Shown here piece by piece: positions 32,203 through 42,097 of a DNA stretch of 64,000 nucleotides. Position 1 is the first letter of the stretch. Each line of letters starts with the position of its first letter. The notes under the pieces are model-generated. The model saw only the letters and a list, made by a program, of their open reading frames with translations, ran no database searches and was not told where the DNA came from. The translations under genes and the position numbers were made by a program. Origin of the DNA: Thermorudis peleae (GTDB lineage: Bacteria; Chloroflexota; Chloroflexia; Thermomicrobiales; Thermomicrobiaceae); contig NZ_JQMP01000001.1 in the NCBI RefSeq assembly GCF_000744775.1, forward strand, positions 1-64,000. The letters are read 5' to 3'.

Positions 32203-34761
32203 ATGACGCAGGGGGATCCGCAGGCCAATCCGGCGATGCTCGCTCAACGCGCCGCGCTCACGCCAGCGCAACTTCGGCGCACGCTTGATCCAGCAACCTT
32301 GCCGTTTACTACCACGGCGGAGGTCGATCCGCTTGAAGGGCTCATTGGCCAGCCGCGAGCGACCGAAGCCCTTGATTTCGGCGTTGGGGTGACTGCGTAC
32401 GGCTATAACCTCTACGTCTCGGGCCGGCCGGGGTCAGGGCGCGAAAGCACTGTACGGCGTTTTCTCGAAGAGTATGCGCAATCGCTACCAACCCCGCCGG
32501 ACTGGGTCTACGTGTATAACTTTGCTGATGCCGATCAGCCACTCGCGCTCGCGTTGCCAGCAGGCCGTGGGGCACAGCTAGCACGCGACCTCGACGAGTT
32601 TATTCGTGCAGCCCAGCGGGTCATCCCCCGCGCTTTTGAGAGCGAAGAGTATGACCGGCGGCGTCAACAGTTGCTCAATCACTTGAACGAGCAGCGTGAG
32701 GCGCGCTGGCGAGCGCTTGAAGAGCTAGCGCGCCAACTCGGGTTTGCCGTCCAAGTCACCCCTGCTGGCGTGGTGACGGTCCCTCTGATCAACGGCCAGC
32801 CGTTGACGCCTGAGCAGTTCCAGCTCTTGCCTCCAGCACTTCAGCAAGACATCGAGCGACGTGGACAGCCGCTGCAGGAGGCGATTGCGCGTACGCTGCG
32901 AGAAGTGCGGCAACTTGAAAAAGACGCAGCTGAGCAGCTCCGCCAGCTCAATCGCAATGTCGCGCTCTTTGCTATCGGTACGCTCTTTGACGAACTCCAC
33001 GAGCGCTATGCCGACTTGCCCGATGTTGCGCGGTTCCTCGAGCAGATTCGTGAAGATATTCCCGAGCATCTTGACGATTTCCTCGTCCAGCAGCCGGCGG
33101 AGGTGCCTGCACCGCTGGCCCAGATGCAACTCCTGCAACAGCAGGAGCATTTAGCGCGCTATCGCGTCAACGTTCTGGTTGACAACAGTACGACGCGTGG
33201 AGCGCCAGTCATCTTCGAGCGCACGCCGGGCTACTACAACCTCGTTGGGCGCATCGAGTATCGCGCCTTGTTCGGGGCTATGGTCACTGATTTCCACCTT
33301 ATCCGGCCGGGAAGCCTGCACCGGGCAAATGGCGGTTTCCTTGTCCTTCACCTAGCCGATTTGCTGCGAGATCCCTTCGCATGGGATGCGTTGAAGCGTG
33401 CGCTCACTACCCGCCAGATCGTGATCGAGAATTTGGGGAGCCAGTACACCCCTGTGCCGACGACGACGCTGCGCCCACAGCCAATACCGCTCTCCGTCAA
33501 AGTCGTGCTCATCGGCACGCCAATGCTCTATAGCATCCTCTCGGCAGTTGATGAAACGTTCAAGGAACTCTTTCGGGTTCGCGCCGATTTCTCGCCCGAT
33601 CTCCCCTGGGACGACGATCATGTCCGTGGCTATGCCGCGTTTATCAGTCGTGTTGTTCGCGAAAATTCCTTGCGCCATTTCGACCGCGGGGCCGTGGCCC
33701 GGGTGATTGAGTACGGTGCGCGGCTCGTTGAGCATCAGCGACGGCTCTCGGCACAATTGCTTGAAATCGCCAACCTCGTCACCGAAGCGAGCTACTGGGC
33801 CGGGCGTGCCGGCCACGAGGTTGTGACCGCAACCGACGTCGACGAGGCCATTCGCCATAAGATCTACCGCTCGAACCTGATCGAGGAGCGCATTCGCGAT
33901 CTCATTGCTGATGACACGATTATGATCGAGACGAGCGGCGCCCGAGTCGGCCAAATCAATGGGCTATCGGTCATCGATTTAGGCGACTATGCCTTTGGTC
34001 GGCCAACTCGGATCACAACTCGCGTCGCCCTTGGGCGTGGGGCGCTGGTGAGCATCGAACGCGAGATTGCGCTCTCCGGGCCGATCCATTCGAAGGGCTT
34101 TCTCATCTTGTCCAACTACCTGATGGGCATGTACGCGCAAGATTTCCCCCTCTCGATTAGCGCCTCGATCACCTTCGAGCAGGCGTACGAGGAGATTGAG
34201 GGCGATTCGGCCTCGTCCGCTGAACTCTACGCCTTGCTTTCAGCCCTGGCCGATGTTCCCATCAACCAAGGCATTGCGGTGACCGGCTCCGTGAACCAGC
34301 ATGGTGAAATCCAGGCCATTGGTGGGGTAAATGAGAAAATTGAGGGCTTCTTTGCCGTCTGTAAGGCGAAAGGACTGACGGGCGACCAGGGCGTGATCAT
34401 CCCCGTTGCGAACGTGCAAAACTTGATGCTCTCGCAAGAGGTCATTGACGCTGTCGCTGCCGGGCAGTTTCACATCTGGGCAGTGCGAACCGTCGATGAA
34501 GGAATCGCGATTCTGACTGGAATGCCCGCCGGTGAGCGCGGCCCAGATGGCTCGTTCCCGGAGGGCACTGTCCACCGGCGAGTCGTTGATCGCCTGCGCG
34601 AGTACGCTGAGCGGCTGCGTGATTTTGGACGCGGGCCGGTAAGCGGCGACCAGCACACTGAGGCTCCCGCTGCCCCTGCTGCATCACCTGCCTCTGAACC
34701 GTCAACTGGCAGCAAATCATCCCTGCGCTTGCGAAGTACGCGGACAGGAGTGCGCGGGTGA
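32203..34761 (+). CDS. Lon-like ATP-dependent protease (LonB-type, AAA_32 family)
   Basis: The 852-residue product begins with an AAA-like domain whose P-loop is SGRPGSGRES (residues ~73-82), with arginine where lysine is usual. A helical insert follows at about 130-300 (Gln/Glu-rich, coiled coil likely). The C-terminal Lon protease domain carries a Ser-Lys dyad: S669 in EGDSASSAE and K712 in GVNEKIEGFF, 43 residues apart as in Lon. There is no N-terminal Lon domain or membrane segment. It probably degrades damaged or regulatory proteins. GGGGAGG stands before the ATG. The C-terminal ~50 residues are low-complexity. Confidence 0.9.
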   Translation: MTQGDPQANPAMLAQRAALTPAQLRRTLDPATLPFTTTAEVDPLEGLIGQPRATEALDFGVGVTAYGYNLYVSGRPGSGRESTVRRFLEEYAQSLPTPPDWVYVYNFADADQPLALALPAGRGAQLARDLDEFIRAAQRVIPRAFESEEYDRRRQQLLNHLNEQREARWRALEELARQLGFAVQVTPAGVVTVPLINGQPLTPEQFQLLPPALQQDIERRGQPLQEAIARTLREVRQLEKDAAEQLRQLNRNVALFAIGTLFDELHERYADLPDVARFLEQIREDIPEHLDDFLVQQPAEVPAPLAQMQLLQQQEHLARYRVNVLVDNSTTRGAPVIFERTPGYYNLVGRIEYRALFGAMVTDFHLIRPGSLHRANGGFLVLHLADLLRDPFAWDALKRALTTRQIVIENLGSQYTPVPTTTLRPQPIPLSVKVVLIGTPMLYSILSAVDETFKELFRVRADFSPDLPWDDDHVRGYAAFISRVVRENSLRHFDRGAVARVIEYGARLVEHQRRLSAQLLEIANLVTEASYWAGRAGHEVVTATDVDEAIRHKIYRSNLIEERIRDLIADDTIMIETSGARVGQINGLSVIDLGDYAFGRPTRITTRVALGRGALVSIEREIALSGPIHSKGFLILSNYLMGMYAQDFPLSISASITFEQAYEEIEGDSASSAELYALLSALADVPINQGIAVTGSVNQHGEIQAIGGVNEKIEGFFAVCKAKGLTGDQGVIIPVANVQNLMLSQEVIDAVAAGQFHIWAVRTVDEGIAILTGMPAGERGPDGSFPEGTVHRRVVDRLREYAERLRDFGRGPVSGDQHTEAPAAPAASPASEPSTGSKSSLRLRSTRTGVRG

Positions 34762-36820: not shown

Positions 36821-36826
36821 TATACT
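36821..36826 (+). promoter_or_regulatory. Extended -10 element for the SelW-like gene and thiI
   Basis: TGGTATACT provides a TGn-extended -10 box, about 28 bases before the GTG at 36854. No clear -35 is visible, as is common with extended -10 promoters. Confidence 0.5.
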
Positions 36827-36853
36827 CAGCGTTTTGTGAATAGGAGGGAAGGA

Positions 36854-37123
36854 GTGACCACCGTGGTATCAGTGACGATTGAGTATTGCCGCAGCTGAGG
36901 CTATCGCGAACGTGCCATCCGTGTGATGGAGCAACTGCTCAATGCCTACGAGTTGGTACTTGATCAGATCGTACTCCAGCCATCGTCTGGTGGGCGATTT
37001 GAGGTAACCGTAGGGCATGAGGTTGCGTTCTCGAAAGCCCAGCAGGGGCGCTTTCCAGAAGAGAACGAGGTGGTGGAAGCTGTTGGCCGCCTTCTGGAAA
37101 ACCACGGCACTGATGGCCATTGA
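36854..37123 (+). CDS. SelW/Rdx-family thioredoxin-like selenoprotein with in-frame UGA
   Basis: Starting at GTG 36854 (AGGAGG at 36842-36847), the frame reads SVTIEYCRS, a TGA at 36896-36898, then GYRERAIRVMEQLLN and onward to the stop at 37121. If the TGA encodes selenocysteine, the 89-residue product has C12-x-x-U15, exactly the redox motif of SelW/Rdx proteins (usually IEYCxxC or CxxU). The later FEVTVGHEVAFSKAQQGRFPE also matches the family. A small hairpin, CCATC/GATGG with loop CGTGT (36915-36929), starts 16 bases after the TGA, where a bacterial SECIS would lie. The alternative is a nonsense mutation at the redox position, which would be a striking coincidence. It precedes thiI by 42 bases. 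Confidence 0.8.
36899..36940 (+). promoter_or_regulatory. Possible bacterial SECIS element downstream of the UGA codon
   Basis: A 5-bp perfect stem CCATC/GATGG with a 5-base loop CGTGT lies at 36915-36929, and TGC/GCA just outside can pair across a 2-base bulge. Position and a G/U-bearing loop fit SelB-dependent elements; the structure was judged by eye only. Confidence 0.4.
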
Positions 37124-37165: not shown

Positions 37166-38395
37166 ATGGGGATGAGGCAGCGCGCGCGGCATTTGTTCCT
37201 GATTGCTCGTGTCCACGAAGTTGCACTCAAAGGGGCGAATCGCCCCTGGTTTATGCGGACGCTGGTTGGGAACCTTGAGTACGCGCTCAGCGGGCTGCCG
37301 CACGGGCGCATTCAGGTTCGCAACCTGCGGGTACTGGTGCCCCTTTCAGAACTGGAAAGTTGGCCGGCCTTTCGTGAGCGGCTTGATTGGGTTTTCGGGG
37401 TTAGTTCCTACGGGCTCGCACTTGAGACAGGAACGAGTGTGCAGTCCTTGACAGCGGGACTTGACCGGCTACTCGAGCTGACCGGCCCGCCTCCTGGCAG
37501 CTTCTGCGTCCGTGTCAAGCGCACAAACAAGGGATATCCGCTGACGTCGCCCGAGCTTGAGCGGATTCTCGGTCAGCACATCCAAGAGCGCACTGGCGCC
37601 CCGGTAAACTTGACTGCGCCGACCGTAACCTATCGGGTTGACCTGCTCTATGACCGGGCACTCCTGACCGGCGAAGAATACCGCGGGCCTGGCGGATTGC
37701 CGGTTGGCGTGAGTGGCCGCGTCGTTGTCCTGCTCTCCGGTGGGTTCGATTCGCCAGTCGCTGCCTATCGGATGATGAAGCGCGGCTGTTTTTTGACCCT
37801 TGTGCACTGCCATGCCTATCCCTACGTCCGGCCGACGTCGATTGAGAAGGTGATCTCGATTGCCCAGCACCTTGGGCGCTACCAGCCAGGAATGCGCCTC
37901 CATATCGTACCGATTGGCGATGCCCAGCGGGAGATTGCCCTGGCCGCTCCGCCTGAACTGCGCGTTGTACTCTACCGGCGGCTCATGCTCCGCATCGCAA
38001 CGGCGATTGCCCACGAGCAGGGTGCTGGAGCGATCGTAACGGGGGAAAGCCTCGGGCAGGTCAGTTCGCAGACGCTTGAGAATATGCGGGCAATCGGTGC
38101 AGTGACCGACCTGCCGCTGCTACGGCCGTTGGTCGGGTTTAACAAGGATGAGATCATGGCTGAGGCTGTGCGCATCGGGACCGAGCCGATCTCGCGCATT
38201 CGCGATGATGACTGCTGCACAGTCTTCGTCCCGCTGCATCCCACAGCACATGCGACGCTTGAAGAAGCAACCGCTGCCGAACGCCTCTTCGATCCTGCGG
38301 CGTTGGTACAGGCGTGCCTGGCCCGGCGGACAGACTATGATGGTGACCCAGCGACATGGGACGTCAGCGCTGCGTTGCTCGCTGCAACCGGTTAA
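37166..38395 (+). CDS. thiI: tRNA 4-thiouridine synthase ThiI (no rhodanese domain)
   Basis: The 409-residue product has the N-terminal ferredoxin-like start (IARVHEVALKGANRPWF), a THUMP domain (about 60-165), and the PP-loop adenylation site VVVLLSGGFDSPVAAYRMM near residue 190. It also has IVTGESLGQVSSQT and a CC pair in DDDCCTVFVP. It uses ATP and a persulfide donor to make s4U in tRNA and can feed sulfur to thiamine. The C-terminal rhodanese domain of the E. coli enzyme is lacking, as in many bacteria. It is probably cotranscribed with the upstream SelW-like gene. Confidence 0.93.
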   Translation: MGMRQRARHLFLIARVHEVALKGANRPWFMRTLVGNLEYALSGLPHGRIQVRNLRVLVPLSELESWPAFRERLDWVFGVSSYGLALETGTSVQSLTAGLDRLLELTGPPPGSFCVRVKRTNKGYPLTSPELERILGQHIQERTGAPVNLTAPTVTYRVDLLYDRALLTGEEYRGPGGLPVGVSGRVVVLLSGGFDSPVAAYRMMKRGCFLTLVHCHAYPYVRPTSIEKVISIAQHLGRYQPGMRLHIVPIGDAQREIALAAPPELRVVLYRRLMLRIATAIAHEQGAGAIVTGESLGQVSSQTLENMRAIGAVTDLPLLRPLVGFNKDEIMAEAVRIGTEPISRIRDDDCCTVFVPLHPTAHATLEEATAAERLFDPAALVQACLARRTDYDGDPATWDVSAALLAATG

Positions 38396-38514: not shown

Positions 38515-39339
38515 CTAGGCATGGGGTGCTGTCACAGTGTCGATGGAACGGGCAAAGGATTCGCGAATGCGCCGGACAAGCAGCGTGATGCTCACGATGG
38601 CCACGAGCCCGCTCAATGTCTCGGCAAGCAGCCAGCCCATTGGTGAGCTAACTGGCAGCGTTTGAAATGTATCCCATAGGGTATGGAGAATGATCGCGAG
38701 CAGCAGTGCGCGCCAGGTCGCTCCCCGGATGAGCCCATGGCCTGTTTGGGCACGCTCGCGCCAGAGCGTTGCGGTAACGAGGCCGGTCCACGCAGCGTGT
38801 CCGGCGGGCGAGAGCAAGCCCCGGATAAGCAACACAGTCTCAACTAAGCCAACATTACCTCGTGAAGCAAGGAGTGCGACGAAGCCGTAGCCCATCGTCT
38901 CAAGCGCCGCAAAACCCATCCCAGAAGCAACACCAAGTACCAAGCCGGTTGCTTCACTGCGAGAGCGGCCGAAAAGATAGACGACCAATGGCACAATGAG
39001 CTTGCTCAGCTCCTCGATCACCCCAACAGCAATGAGCGGCAGGAAGCCGAGGCTACGGTAGGTATCGTACTCCAGCGTGCCAGCGACCGTCGCACCAAGG
39101 ACGCCGCCCCAAACAAAATTCCAGATAACGACATGTGGTGCCAGCTGTTCCGGCAGCGCGTGCTCATAGAGCCAGAGGACAAAGGTGACAGGCACCAGGA
39201 AGGCACCGATGAGGAGCAGGGCTGGCGCGTAGTTCGGGTTATGCGTTTGCTGAATCGCACGCTGCAGCAAAACAAAGAGGATGAGGCCACCAACAAGGAC
39301 CTGGAACCATCCGCGGAATGGAAGACGGAGAATCCCCAT
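38515..39339 (-). CDS. prsW: PrsW-family intramembrane metalloprotease
   Basis: The 274-residue product has eight or so hydrophobic segments and the PrsW metal motifs: IEELSKLIVPL (EExxK type), FAALETMGYG, SPAGHAAWTGL and IILHTLWDTF. The family cleaves anti-sigma factors or other membrane proteins within the bilayer. ATG 39339 has GGAGGGGG upstream, better than the in-frame GTG at 39360. It lies 49 bases downstream of mprF on the same strand, so both probably serve the cell-envelope response. Confidence 0.87.
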   Translation of the reverse strand: MGILRLPFRGWFQVLVGGLILFVLLQRAIQQTHNPNYAPALLLIGAFLVPVTFVLWLYEHALPEQLAPHVVIWNFVWGGVLGATVAGTLEYDTYRSLGFLPLIAVGVIEELSKLIVPLVVYLFGRSRSEATGLVLGVASGMGFAALETMGYGFVALLASRGNVGLVETVLLIRGLLSPAGHAAWTGLVTATLWRERAQTGHGLIRGATWRALLLAIILHTLWDTFQTLPVSSPMGWLLAETLSGLVAIVSITLLVRRIRESFARSIDTVTAPHA

Positions 39340-39388
39340 GACATCCCCCTCCGAATGCACGATGCGACTGTGGACAATGCACTACCCG

Positions 39389-42097
39389 CTATGATAGCGA
39401 TGATGCAGGGGCTTGTGCCGATACAGCAGTAGAAGACACGCTGAGGCTGAAAGGATCCCAGAGTGGCTCGCCAGGCAGGAAGCGTGCAGCCCGGCGTGGA
39501 TCGTAGGACTCAGTGAGCCGTACGACTGCCAGCGCAATCAGTGGTAGCGCTAGTTCAGTCTCGTAGACGAGGTACCGTGGCTCCCAGACTGGATCAAATT
39601 TGTCCTTGTACTCCCGTAAACCAGTGAACGAGAAGAGCCGGTTCAACCGTGTGTAGAAGAGCTGAATGGCGCGAGCTGTCAAGTCCACCCCGGTTTCAGG
39701 CGTCACACCAGCCAGTGGAGCCAGCCCAAGCGACAGGCTAGTGTAGCCGTGCGCCTGGGCTCGTTCAATGAGCTTGACGAGCAGAAAGTCCATTGCACCA
39801 TTGGGTTCTGGCAGCCGACGCATGAGGTCGAAGGTGAGTTGGCCCGGCACCCCGCTCGGGATCAGGTTCACGAAGGCGACAATCTGCCCGGTTGCGCTCT
39901 CGACCGCAACGATCGGCGTCCACCTGACATAATCATCGCGAAACTGCCCTTGGGTGAAGCTACGTTCACGCCGGTTTAGTCCAGTGAGCCATGTGTCGGA
40001 AACGGCACGAAGATGAGCAAGCAGCGTGTCGTTGTGGGGTGGGGTGTAGTAGACAACGTGATATCCCTCGCGCTCAAGGCGATGCACAATCCATCGGAGC
40101 GGCTTACGGCGCGCGCCCCGGAGCGAGAACGAGCGCAGGTCGAGCACGGCTTCTTCGCCGATCTTGATTGCCTCGAGTCCACGCGCGCGGTATGCCGCAA
40201 GATGTGTCTCAGGCACTTGATGGAAAGCGACCCGCCAGTCGTTCGCGTCGCAGAAGTCGAGGAACTCGTCGAGTACGCGGTCGAAGTCTGCTGGTGTCGC
40301 GGCAACGGGGTCGCCGAGGACAACGGCCGTGTTGAGACTGACGCCATAGGCGATCACGGCCTCGCCGTGTGAGGGAAAGAAGAAGAGCTTATCCGGCCAC
40401 CACTTAAAGAAATCAAGCGAGGAGTTGCCATACCGCTCAATCAGCTGCCGAGCACGCTGACGCTCCTGTGGGTGCGTGCGATAGCGCCAAACGACGGGGC
40501 GGGTGAGGGAGAAAGCCGCGACTGCGAGCGTGGTAATGCCAATCACGGTCAGCGAGTCAAGGAACCACGCGCCGTAGCGGGTGTGGGGGTGAATGGTTCG
40601 TCCGCCGATGCCAAAGTAGGTGGCAAGTGTCTGCTCAATTGCCTCGTGGAAGCGAAAGTGCTCGCCAAACGCGCGTGGGCCGAGCAGTTGGAATCCGAGT
40701 GCGCCGTACACGAGGGCAAAGGCAAAGCTAAACACAGTAAACGCGAGACCACGTTGCAACGTTGGCAGGTCAGAGCGGACATGGTAGTCGTTGTGGCGCC
40801 AGAGCAGAATCGCAATGTTGATGCCAGCCAGTACTGAAATCCATGGGTCGCCCCCGCGTAGACCGTGGATCGGAATCAGGCCAGCCAACAGAGCAAGCGA
40901 GGCAAGCCAGGCTGTGCGCTTGCGACGCCAGAGTTGATAGGCCAGGTACATGAGCAAGAAGCCGAGGACGACGGCGAAGGTACGCGAGAACTCCTGCGGC
41001 TCAAAGAGCGAGTACTCACTCAGCCGGTTCAGCCGTGGAGGGATCATGTGTGGCGTCGTCGCAACCAAAATTGAGAGCAGTCCTGTGAGGAAGAGCACCA
41101 GAGCTGGCAAATGCCGAACGAAACGACGTACCTCGCGGTCTTGCCCAAGGCGGAGTGCGAGCCCAAGCGCGAACGGCAACCAGAGTTCATGCAGGCGGTA
41201 GAGCAACGAGGCCGCGAGGGCGGCAGCCCCGGGCACACCGAGTTGCTCGAGCGCGAGCGTCATCGACAGTTCGACCGCGCCGGTGCCTTGAAAGAGCGGG
41301 ATGACGAAGGCAAAGAGCAAGCCGACCTGATAGCCAATCAGCGCCACGAGCAGCGGAGGATGGACGCCCGTCGCGCGGAGGCAGGCAGCTAACAGCGCGA
41401 CGTTGGCCAGGTCGACTGTCAGCGCAAACAGGAAGGGGAGGCCGAGGTCGCGCACGCGAATGCGCCGGCTGCGCAGGCCGTCGATGAGCTGGCGGACTTC
41501 CTCCGGCAACATACTGACAAGGCGATCGGGCAAAGGTAGGCCGCTGAGCACGAGCGCCGCGCCGCCGATGAATGTGCCAGCAACCAGACTCAGCGCAGCA
41601 ACACCGCTCAACATGAGGGGGGTTAGGGCGTGGTCGAGGATGAGCAAGATGAGCGCAGGGATCAGCAAAAGCACAAACGACGTATAGCCGAGCGCGGCGT
41701 AGAGCCCGAGCGAGAGGAGGGATGCTTCGGTGGGCACCCCGAACTGGGCCAGATCCTGCGTGAAGACGTAGGTGCCAGGAGCGACGCCAAACGGCGTGAC
41801 GGTGCTCACGAGCAAGCGGTGAAGGTCAGCGCGGAATAGTGTGCGAATGGGCAAGGGGTAGCCAAGCCGCGCCAGGATTGTCCGAAGGTTCGCCGCAATG
41901 ACCAGGAGGATGCCCAGCTGAAGCAGGAGCGTCACGAACAACCAACGCGGGTCGGCATGACGCCAGACCAGGGTCAGCCGCACCAGCTCGCGCCGCTGAT
42001 TCACGAAAAAGATGGTTACCAGCCCCAGTAAGACGACTAGCCACGCGCCGCTGGGAAGGCGCTGGAGTTGCTGGATGATTCGTCGCACGAGTCGCAT
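39389..42097 (-). CDS. mprF: MprF-type phosphatidylglycerol aminoacyltransferase/flippase
   Basis: The 902-residue product has about 14 hydrophobic segments in the first ~560 residues. The lysylphosphatidylglycerol flippase part shows STVTPFGVAPGTYVF and PLFQGTGAVELSM. A cytosolic DUF2156 GNAT-like synthase domain follows (about 570-860: KLFFFPSHGEAVIAYG, VALGDPV-like VVLGDPVAATP, GAMDFLLVKLIE, FSFTGLREYKDKFDP). It transfers an amino acid from tRNA to phosphatidylglycerol and flips the lipid, lowering envelope charge. The amino acid cannot be predicted. It heads a two-gene unit with prsW. Confidence 0.9.
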   Translation of the reverse strand: MRLVRRIIQQLQRLPSGAWLVVLLGLVTIFFVNQRRELVRLTLVWRHADPRWLFVTLLLQLGILLVIAANLRTILARLGYPLPIRTLFRADLHRLLVSTVTPFGVAPGTYVFTQDLAQFGVPTEASLLSLGLYAALGYTSFVLLLIPALILLILDHALTPLMLSGVAALSLVAGTFIGGAALVLSGLPLPDRLVSMLPEEVRQLIDGLRSRRIRVRDLGLPFLFALTVDLANVALLAACLRATGVHPPLLVALIGYQVGLLFAFVIPLFQGTGAVELSMTLALEQLGVPGAAALAASLLYRLHELWLPFALGLALRLGQDREVRRFVRHLPALVLFLTGLLSILVATTPHMIPPRLNRLSEYSLFEPQEFSRTFAVVLGFLLMYLAYQLWRRKRTAWLASLALLAGLIPIHGLRGGDPWISVLAGINIAILLWRHNDYHVRSDLPTLQRGLAFTVFSFAFALVYGALGFQLLGPRAFGEHFRFHEAIEQTLATYFGIGGRTIHPHTRYGAWFLDSLTVIGITTLAVAAFSLTRPVVWRYRTHPQERQRARQLIERYGNSSLDFFKWWPDKLFFFPSHGEAVIAYGVSLNTAVVLGDPVAATPADFDRVLDEFLDFCDANDWRVAFHQVPETHLAAYRARGLEAIKIGEEAVLDLRSFSLRGARRKPLRWIVHRLEREGYHVVYYTPPHNDTLLAHLRAVSDTWLTGLNRRERSFTQGQFRDDYVRWTPIVAVESATGQIVAFVNLIPSGVPGQLTFDLMRRLPEPNGAMDFLLVKLIERAQAHGYTSLSLGLAPLAGVTPETGVDLTARAIQLFYTRLNRLFSFTGLREYKDKFDPVWEPRYLVYETELALPLIALAVVRLTESYDPRRAARFLPGEPLWDPFSLSVSSTAVSAQAPASSLS

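Follow-up and report, generated by a model that had tools for sequence, protein, structure and literature searches.

A SelW-like Rdx gene with an in-frame UGA, very probably a selenocysteine codon, in Thermorudis peleae

SELENOW-like proteins of the Rdx family with a CxxU motif are listed among the prokaryotic selenoprotein families in a table of one review (PMC9312934), and bacterial SelW-like selenoproteins had been described by 2006 (PMC1794560). Curated models exist for the SelW-like Rdx family. A placement of SelW in the phylum considered here was not found in main-text passages of open-licence papers. Bacterial selenocysteine insertion sequences (bSECIS) are described as hairpins with a loop of 3-9 nt, a stem of 4-16 bp, a G within the first two positions of the loop and a distance from UGA to loop of 16-37 nt (PMC13188914).

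The locus described here lies in the window, which is the whole stretch of 64,000 nucleotides analysed. It shares with the known bacterial SelW-like selenoproteins (PF10262, CxxU) the family, the motif and the UGA at the second redox position, and differs from them in that the form found in the window is spread through the class, its TGA always at one site and its 5-bp SECIS highly uniform. By every feature examined other than the energy limit of the SECIS, selW is a well-supported new member of the established SelW-like CxxU bacterial family. Ordinary gene finding would plausibly skip such a gene or shorten its product to 14 residues. It is a clean addition to the Sec genes, in a form that 65 of 158 examined genomes of the class have in common.

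The selW gene and its product

The gene occupies an 89-codon frame on the plus strand, with a GTG start, a closing TGA at 37121-37123 and an in-frame TGA as codon 15. The features of the locus are as follows.

36821-36826, plus strand: TATACT, probable -10 element of the selW promoter (by eye; recurs in orthologues)
36842-36847, plus strand: AGGAGG, ribosome-binding site for GTG 36854 (sequence)
36849-36854, plus strand: AAGGAG, second ribosome-binding site, which would serve GTG 36863 (sequence)
36854-37123, plus strand: selW-like gene, Rdx family (PF10262 78.6 bits, TIGR02174 62.3 bits; pN < pS downstream of the TGA)
36887-36898, plus strand: CxxU redox motif, TGC CGC AGC TGA (alignment with CxxC/CxxU of homologues, 87 loci)
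36896-36898, plus strand: predicted Sec codon UGA (66 homologous genes from 65 loci, the gene of the window included, have TGA here)
36915-36929, plus strand: candidate bSECIS hairpin, CCAUC-CGUGU-GAUGG (5/5 pairs in 61/61 distinct TGA genes; loop position 2 is G)
37166-38395, plus strand: thiI, tRNA sulfurtransferase (PF02568 211.7 bits), the next gene downstream and outside the Sec feature

Read through the TGA, the product is VTTVVSVTIEYCRSU15GYRERAIRVMEQLLNAYELVLDQIVLQPSSGGRFEVTVGHEVAFSKAQQGRFPEENEVVEAVGRLLENHGTDGH, with the motif C12-R-S-U15 around the Sec site. The AGGAGG lies 6 nt upstream of GTG 36854, and GTG 36863 is closer in the alignment to the start positions of the orthologues. 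The start may be either 36854 or 36863; in the second case the residue would be U12, not U15. Most same-family orthologues that are nearer to selW have a TATACT or TATAAT box at a similar upstream place (alignment, by eye), and this recurrence suggests that selW has its own promoter; an automatic sigma-70 scan upstream of selW found no full two-box promoter.

With Cys placed at U15, the product scores 78.6 bits against PF10262 (Rdx; cut-off 22.6), with E = 4e-22 across the TGA, and 62.3 bits against TIGR02174 (CXXU_selWTH; cut-off 34.2); against NF041051 it reaches 80.7, under the 88-bit cut-off of that model. Because the Rdx match crosses the TGA at E = 4e-22, and TGA stands at the same site in 65 genomes of the class, the frame with its internal TGA is, on sequence comparison, not due to chance. 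A profile search of the whole genome found no Rdx gene other than selW, which scored 71 bits with one TGA inside. The solved Rdx structures 3dex, 2p0g, 2fa8, 2ljk (human C17orf37/MIEN1) and 2npb (SelW) belong to the same family (E 6e-10 to 0.012) but are remote, and the best two, 3dex and 2p0g, have Cys at the Sec site as far as the displayed alignments go. An AlphaFold model from the single selW sequence, of low confidence (pLDDT 54), places CxxU after the first beta strand, followed by a helix.

The first-pass annotation had described this frame with its AGGAGG and GTG, put the TGA exactly at the second redox residue of CxxC/CxxU and let the frame continue as a SelW/Rdx-like protein. The frame stands as described, with GTG 36863 as a refinement; the TGA aligns with Cys or Sec of homologues at 87 loci; and the cut-offs of both PF10262 and TIGR02174 are exceeded.

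Selenocysteine decoding and distribution of the TGA form

The gene at 36854 almost certainly encodes a SelW-like selenoprotein (Rdx, thioredoxin-like fold) in which UGA is predicted to be read as Sec. Family membership, TGA position, a complete machinery, a conserved and covarying hairpin and selection downstream were all computed for selW. In the proposed mechanism, SelA and SelD would make Sec-tRNA, SelB would deliver it while binding the hairpin at 36915-36929 just downstream of the UGA, and the Sec-tRNA (selC) would decode UGA 36896. The resulting Sec would pair with Cys12 as CxxU, and the protein is expected to be a selenenyl-sulfide thiol oxidoreductase, a redox activity predicted from the motif.

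The genome of the window (2.93 Mb in 4 contigs, 97% complete) has selA (559 bits in a profile search), selC (73 bits, above the gathering score) and selD (376 bits). Its selB is full-length, scores 333 bits and contains two winged-helix domains of the SelB type. ARAGORN also reports a tRNA-SeC with the anticodon tca (UCA). In the SelD gene an in-frame TGA (L018:1531-1533) falls within the active-site motif HCAGUAGK, as residue U31 of the part translated. A single in-frame TGA is likewise present in each of two formate dehydrogenase alpha genes (L109/L111, G000:C1:626948-630112; L110/L112, G000:C3:418233-421340). Both of the latter probably encode further selenoproteins. Since selW, SelD and the two formate dehydrogenase alpha genes each have a TGA, the genome likely encodes at least four selenoproteins.

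That UGA is read here as a standard amino acid, by general reassignment of the codon or by leaky near-cognate read-through, is very unlikely. The inserted residue is predicted from the sequence, which leaves room for such a reading, but selW itself and several homologues terminate in TGA, the genome has the full Sec system, and the TGA falls exactly at the redox Cys site and comes with a SECIS. Furthermore, SelD and both FdhA genes have one TGA each, that of SelD in the active-site motif.

The Sec reading also agrees with the distribution of the gene in 158 genomes of the class. Rdx occurs in 82/158 and the form with TGA in 65/158, including a copy in G046 that is cut by a contig end and shows the TGA on reading. 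TGA is the second redox position of CxxU in every TGA-form copy read. The selA gene is above cut-off in 60 of the 65 genomes with the TGA form versus 59 of the 93 without it (Fisher p = 2.5e-5, kinship between genomes uncorrected). Two further TGA-form genomes have selA in contig-end fragments, and three TGA-form drafts (G106, G148 and G049, 64-78% complete) gave no selA above cut-off and no clear fragment; selA is wholly absent from no near-complete TGA-form genome in the class. G063 and G065-G071 carry Rdx of the Cys type alone and lack selA. TGA-type Rdx is also widespread elsewhere in the phylum, and a peptide-pattern search of named genomes returned a single relative, from a Limisphaerales MAG, in which CxxU and the TGA are the same.

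The protein goes on beyond the TGA in every copy read, with an open frame of 74 codons in the window (median 69, minimum 62). In all 91 same-family pairs pN is lower than pS after the TGA (means 0.24 vs 0.58); by this measure, the protein downstream is under purifying selection in the family of the window. The first-pass annotation had inferred that the organism makes selenoproteins and proposed a search for selA, selB, selC and selD. All four are present, and relatives with TGA and then no protein were looked for among the homologues examined and none was found; with neither of the two opposing outcomes observed, the proposal is supported.

In Cys-type homologues the Sec site aligns with Cys. 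The idea that they are the same gene with Sec replaced by Cys was rejected, since most of them form a subfamily of their own (IELIPW..DG.FDV...HSM), which several genomes (G050, G098, G032, G021, G149) have alongside the TGA form. In G149, two TGA-type Rdx genes lie side by side (L068), the second divergent, and a Cys-type copy stands elsewhere (L067). In G142, the redox pair of a divergent Rdx homologue (L108, 31.9 bits) is replaced by Asn and Arg (NVER).

The hairpin downstream of the UGA

The small hairpin first noted 16 bases downstream has a stem that starts exactly 16 nt past the TGA, and in position and covariation it agrees with the SECIS model with which comparison had been proposed. 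In the window, 36915-36919 (CCAUC) pairs with 36925-36929 (GAUGG), giving a 5 bp stem, a 5 nt loop (CGUGU) and an apical loop 21 nt after the UGA. With the T of TGA as position 1, these are positions 20-24 and 34-30. The complete set of five pairs is present in 61/61 distinct TGA genes versus 0/20 non-TGA homologues in the same register. When the arm was slid by 1 to 6 either way, the count was 0/61 throughout, and shuffled 3' arms reached 42 on average and 50 at most, versus the 61 observed. The outermost and the loop-closing pairs are always C-G in TGA genes, and the inner three vary with compensation (C-G, A-U, U-A; A-U, G-C; U-A, C-G, U-G). The second loop position is G in 61/61 distinct TGA genes.

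The hairpin shares with the bSECIS consensus the 5-bp stem, the 5-nt loop, a G at loop position 2 with U or G next to it on the 3' side, and the apical loop 21 nt after UGA. By its sequence and predicted pairing it is inside all published bSECIS positional limits and covarying. It departs from the consensus in that the core stem is weak alone: as a bare 15-mer it has -4.0 kcal/mol, the weakest of the 61 (folding energies at 37 C only). With flanks the conserved stem reaches -7.0 kcal/mol, against the bSECIS minimum free energy limit of -7.5, and the 37 nt after UGA reach -8.1 kcal/mol by an alternative fold (limit -7.5). With the bases after UGA free, a competing fold wins and the conserved stem has a pair probability of about 0.2; it dominates (0.93) once nine bases after UGA are omitted, as a stalled ribosome would cover them. 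An Rfam scan of the selW region left the hairpin unmatched; a general bSECIS model may be missing from Rfam.

Pairs 22-32 and 23-31 couple codon 8 to codon 11 (UGA being codon 1) through the first and second bases of each. The residue pairs at these codons in TGA genes are Ala:Ala (32), Thr:Val (17), Val:Ala (10, via G-U), Val:Thr (6) and Ile:Met (1, the window), and each is, as read from the aligned codons, dictated by base pairing. Since the hairpin is located within the reading frame, in a part where residues recur, it might be a mere by-product of conserved protein sequence with no role in decoding; this is scarcely credible, as the paired positions switch amino acids jointly and non-TGA homologues are without such pairing, having mostly Leu:Ala and Leu:Val. 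The SECIS alignment is an unusually clear case where RNA pairing sets the permitted amino-acid pairs, and a warning for methods that take residue coupling as 3D contact.

A pseudogene or sequencing error, in which a Cys codon (TGC/TGT, one base from TGA, with Cys homologues in existence) became TGA in this genome, is extremely improbable and is refuted by comparative data, namely the same TGA in homologues from 65 loci, including the unrelated Limisphaerales MAG, purifying selection on the protein past the TGA and a hairpin kept in TGA forms only.

Genomic neighbourhood

Upstream of selW is a divergent aspartokinase. Downstream, thiI follows in 18 same-family loci, that of the window included, and in some of these about one gene's length lies between. 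Because selW stands directly or closely upstream of thiI across the family, the selenoprotein might conceivably serve sulfur or persulfide handling for ThiI (tRNA 4-thiouridine sulfurtransferase), although this is doubtful; if true, the link would make ThiI the physiological partner of a bacterial SelW-like protein.

Farther along the window, on the minus strand, a PrsW-family intramembrane protease (38515-39360) adjoins a lysylphosphatidylglycerol synthase (MprF-like, 39389-42097), both ordinary neighbours. A LonB-like/LonC-like AAA protease is encoded at 32203-34761 on the plus strand.
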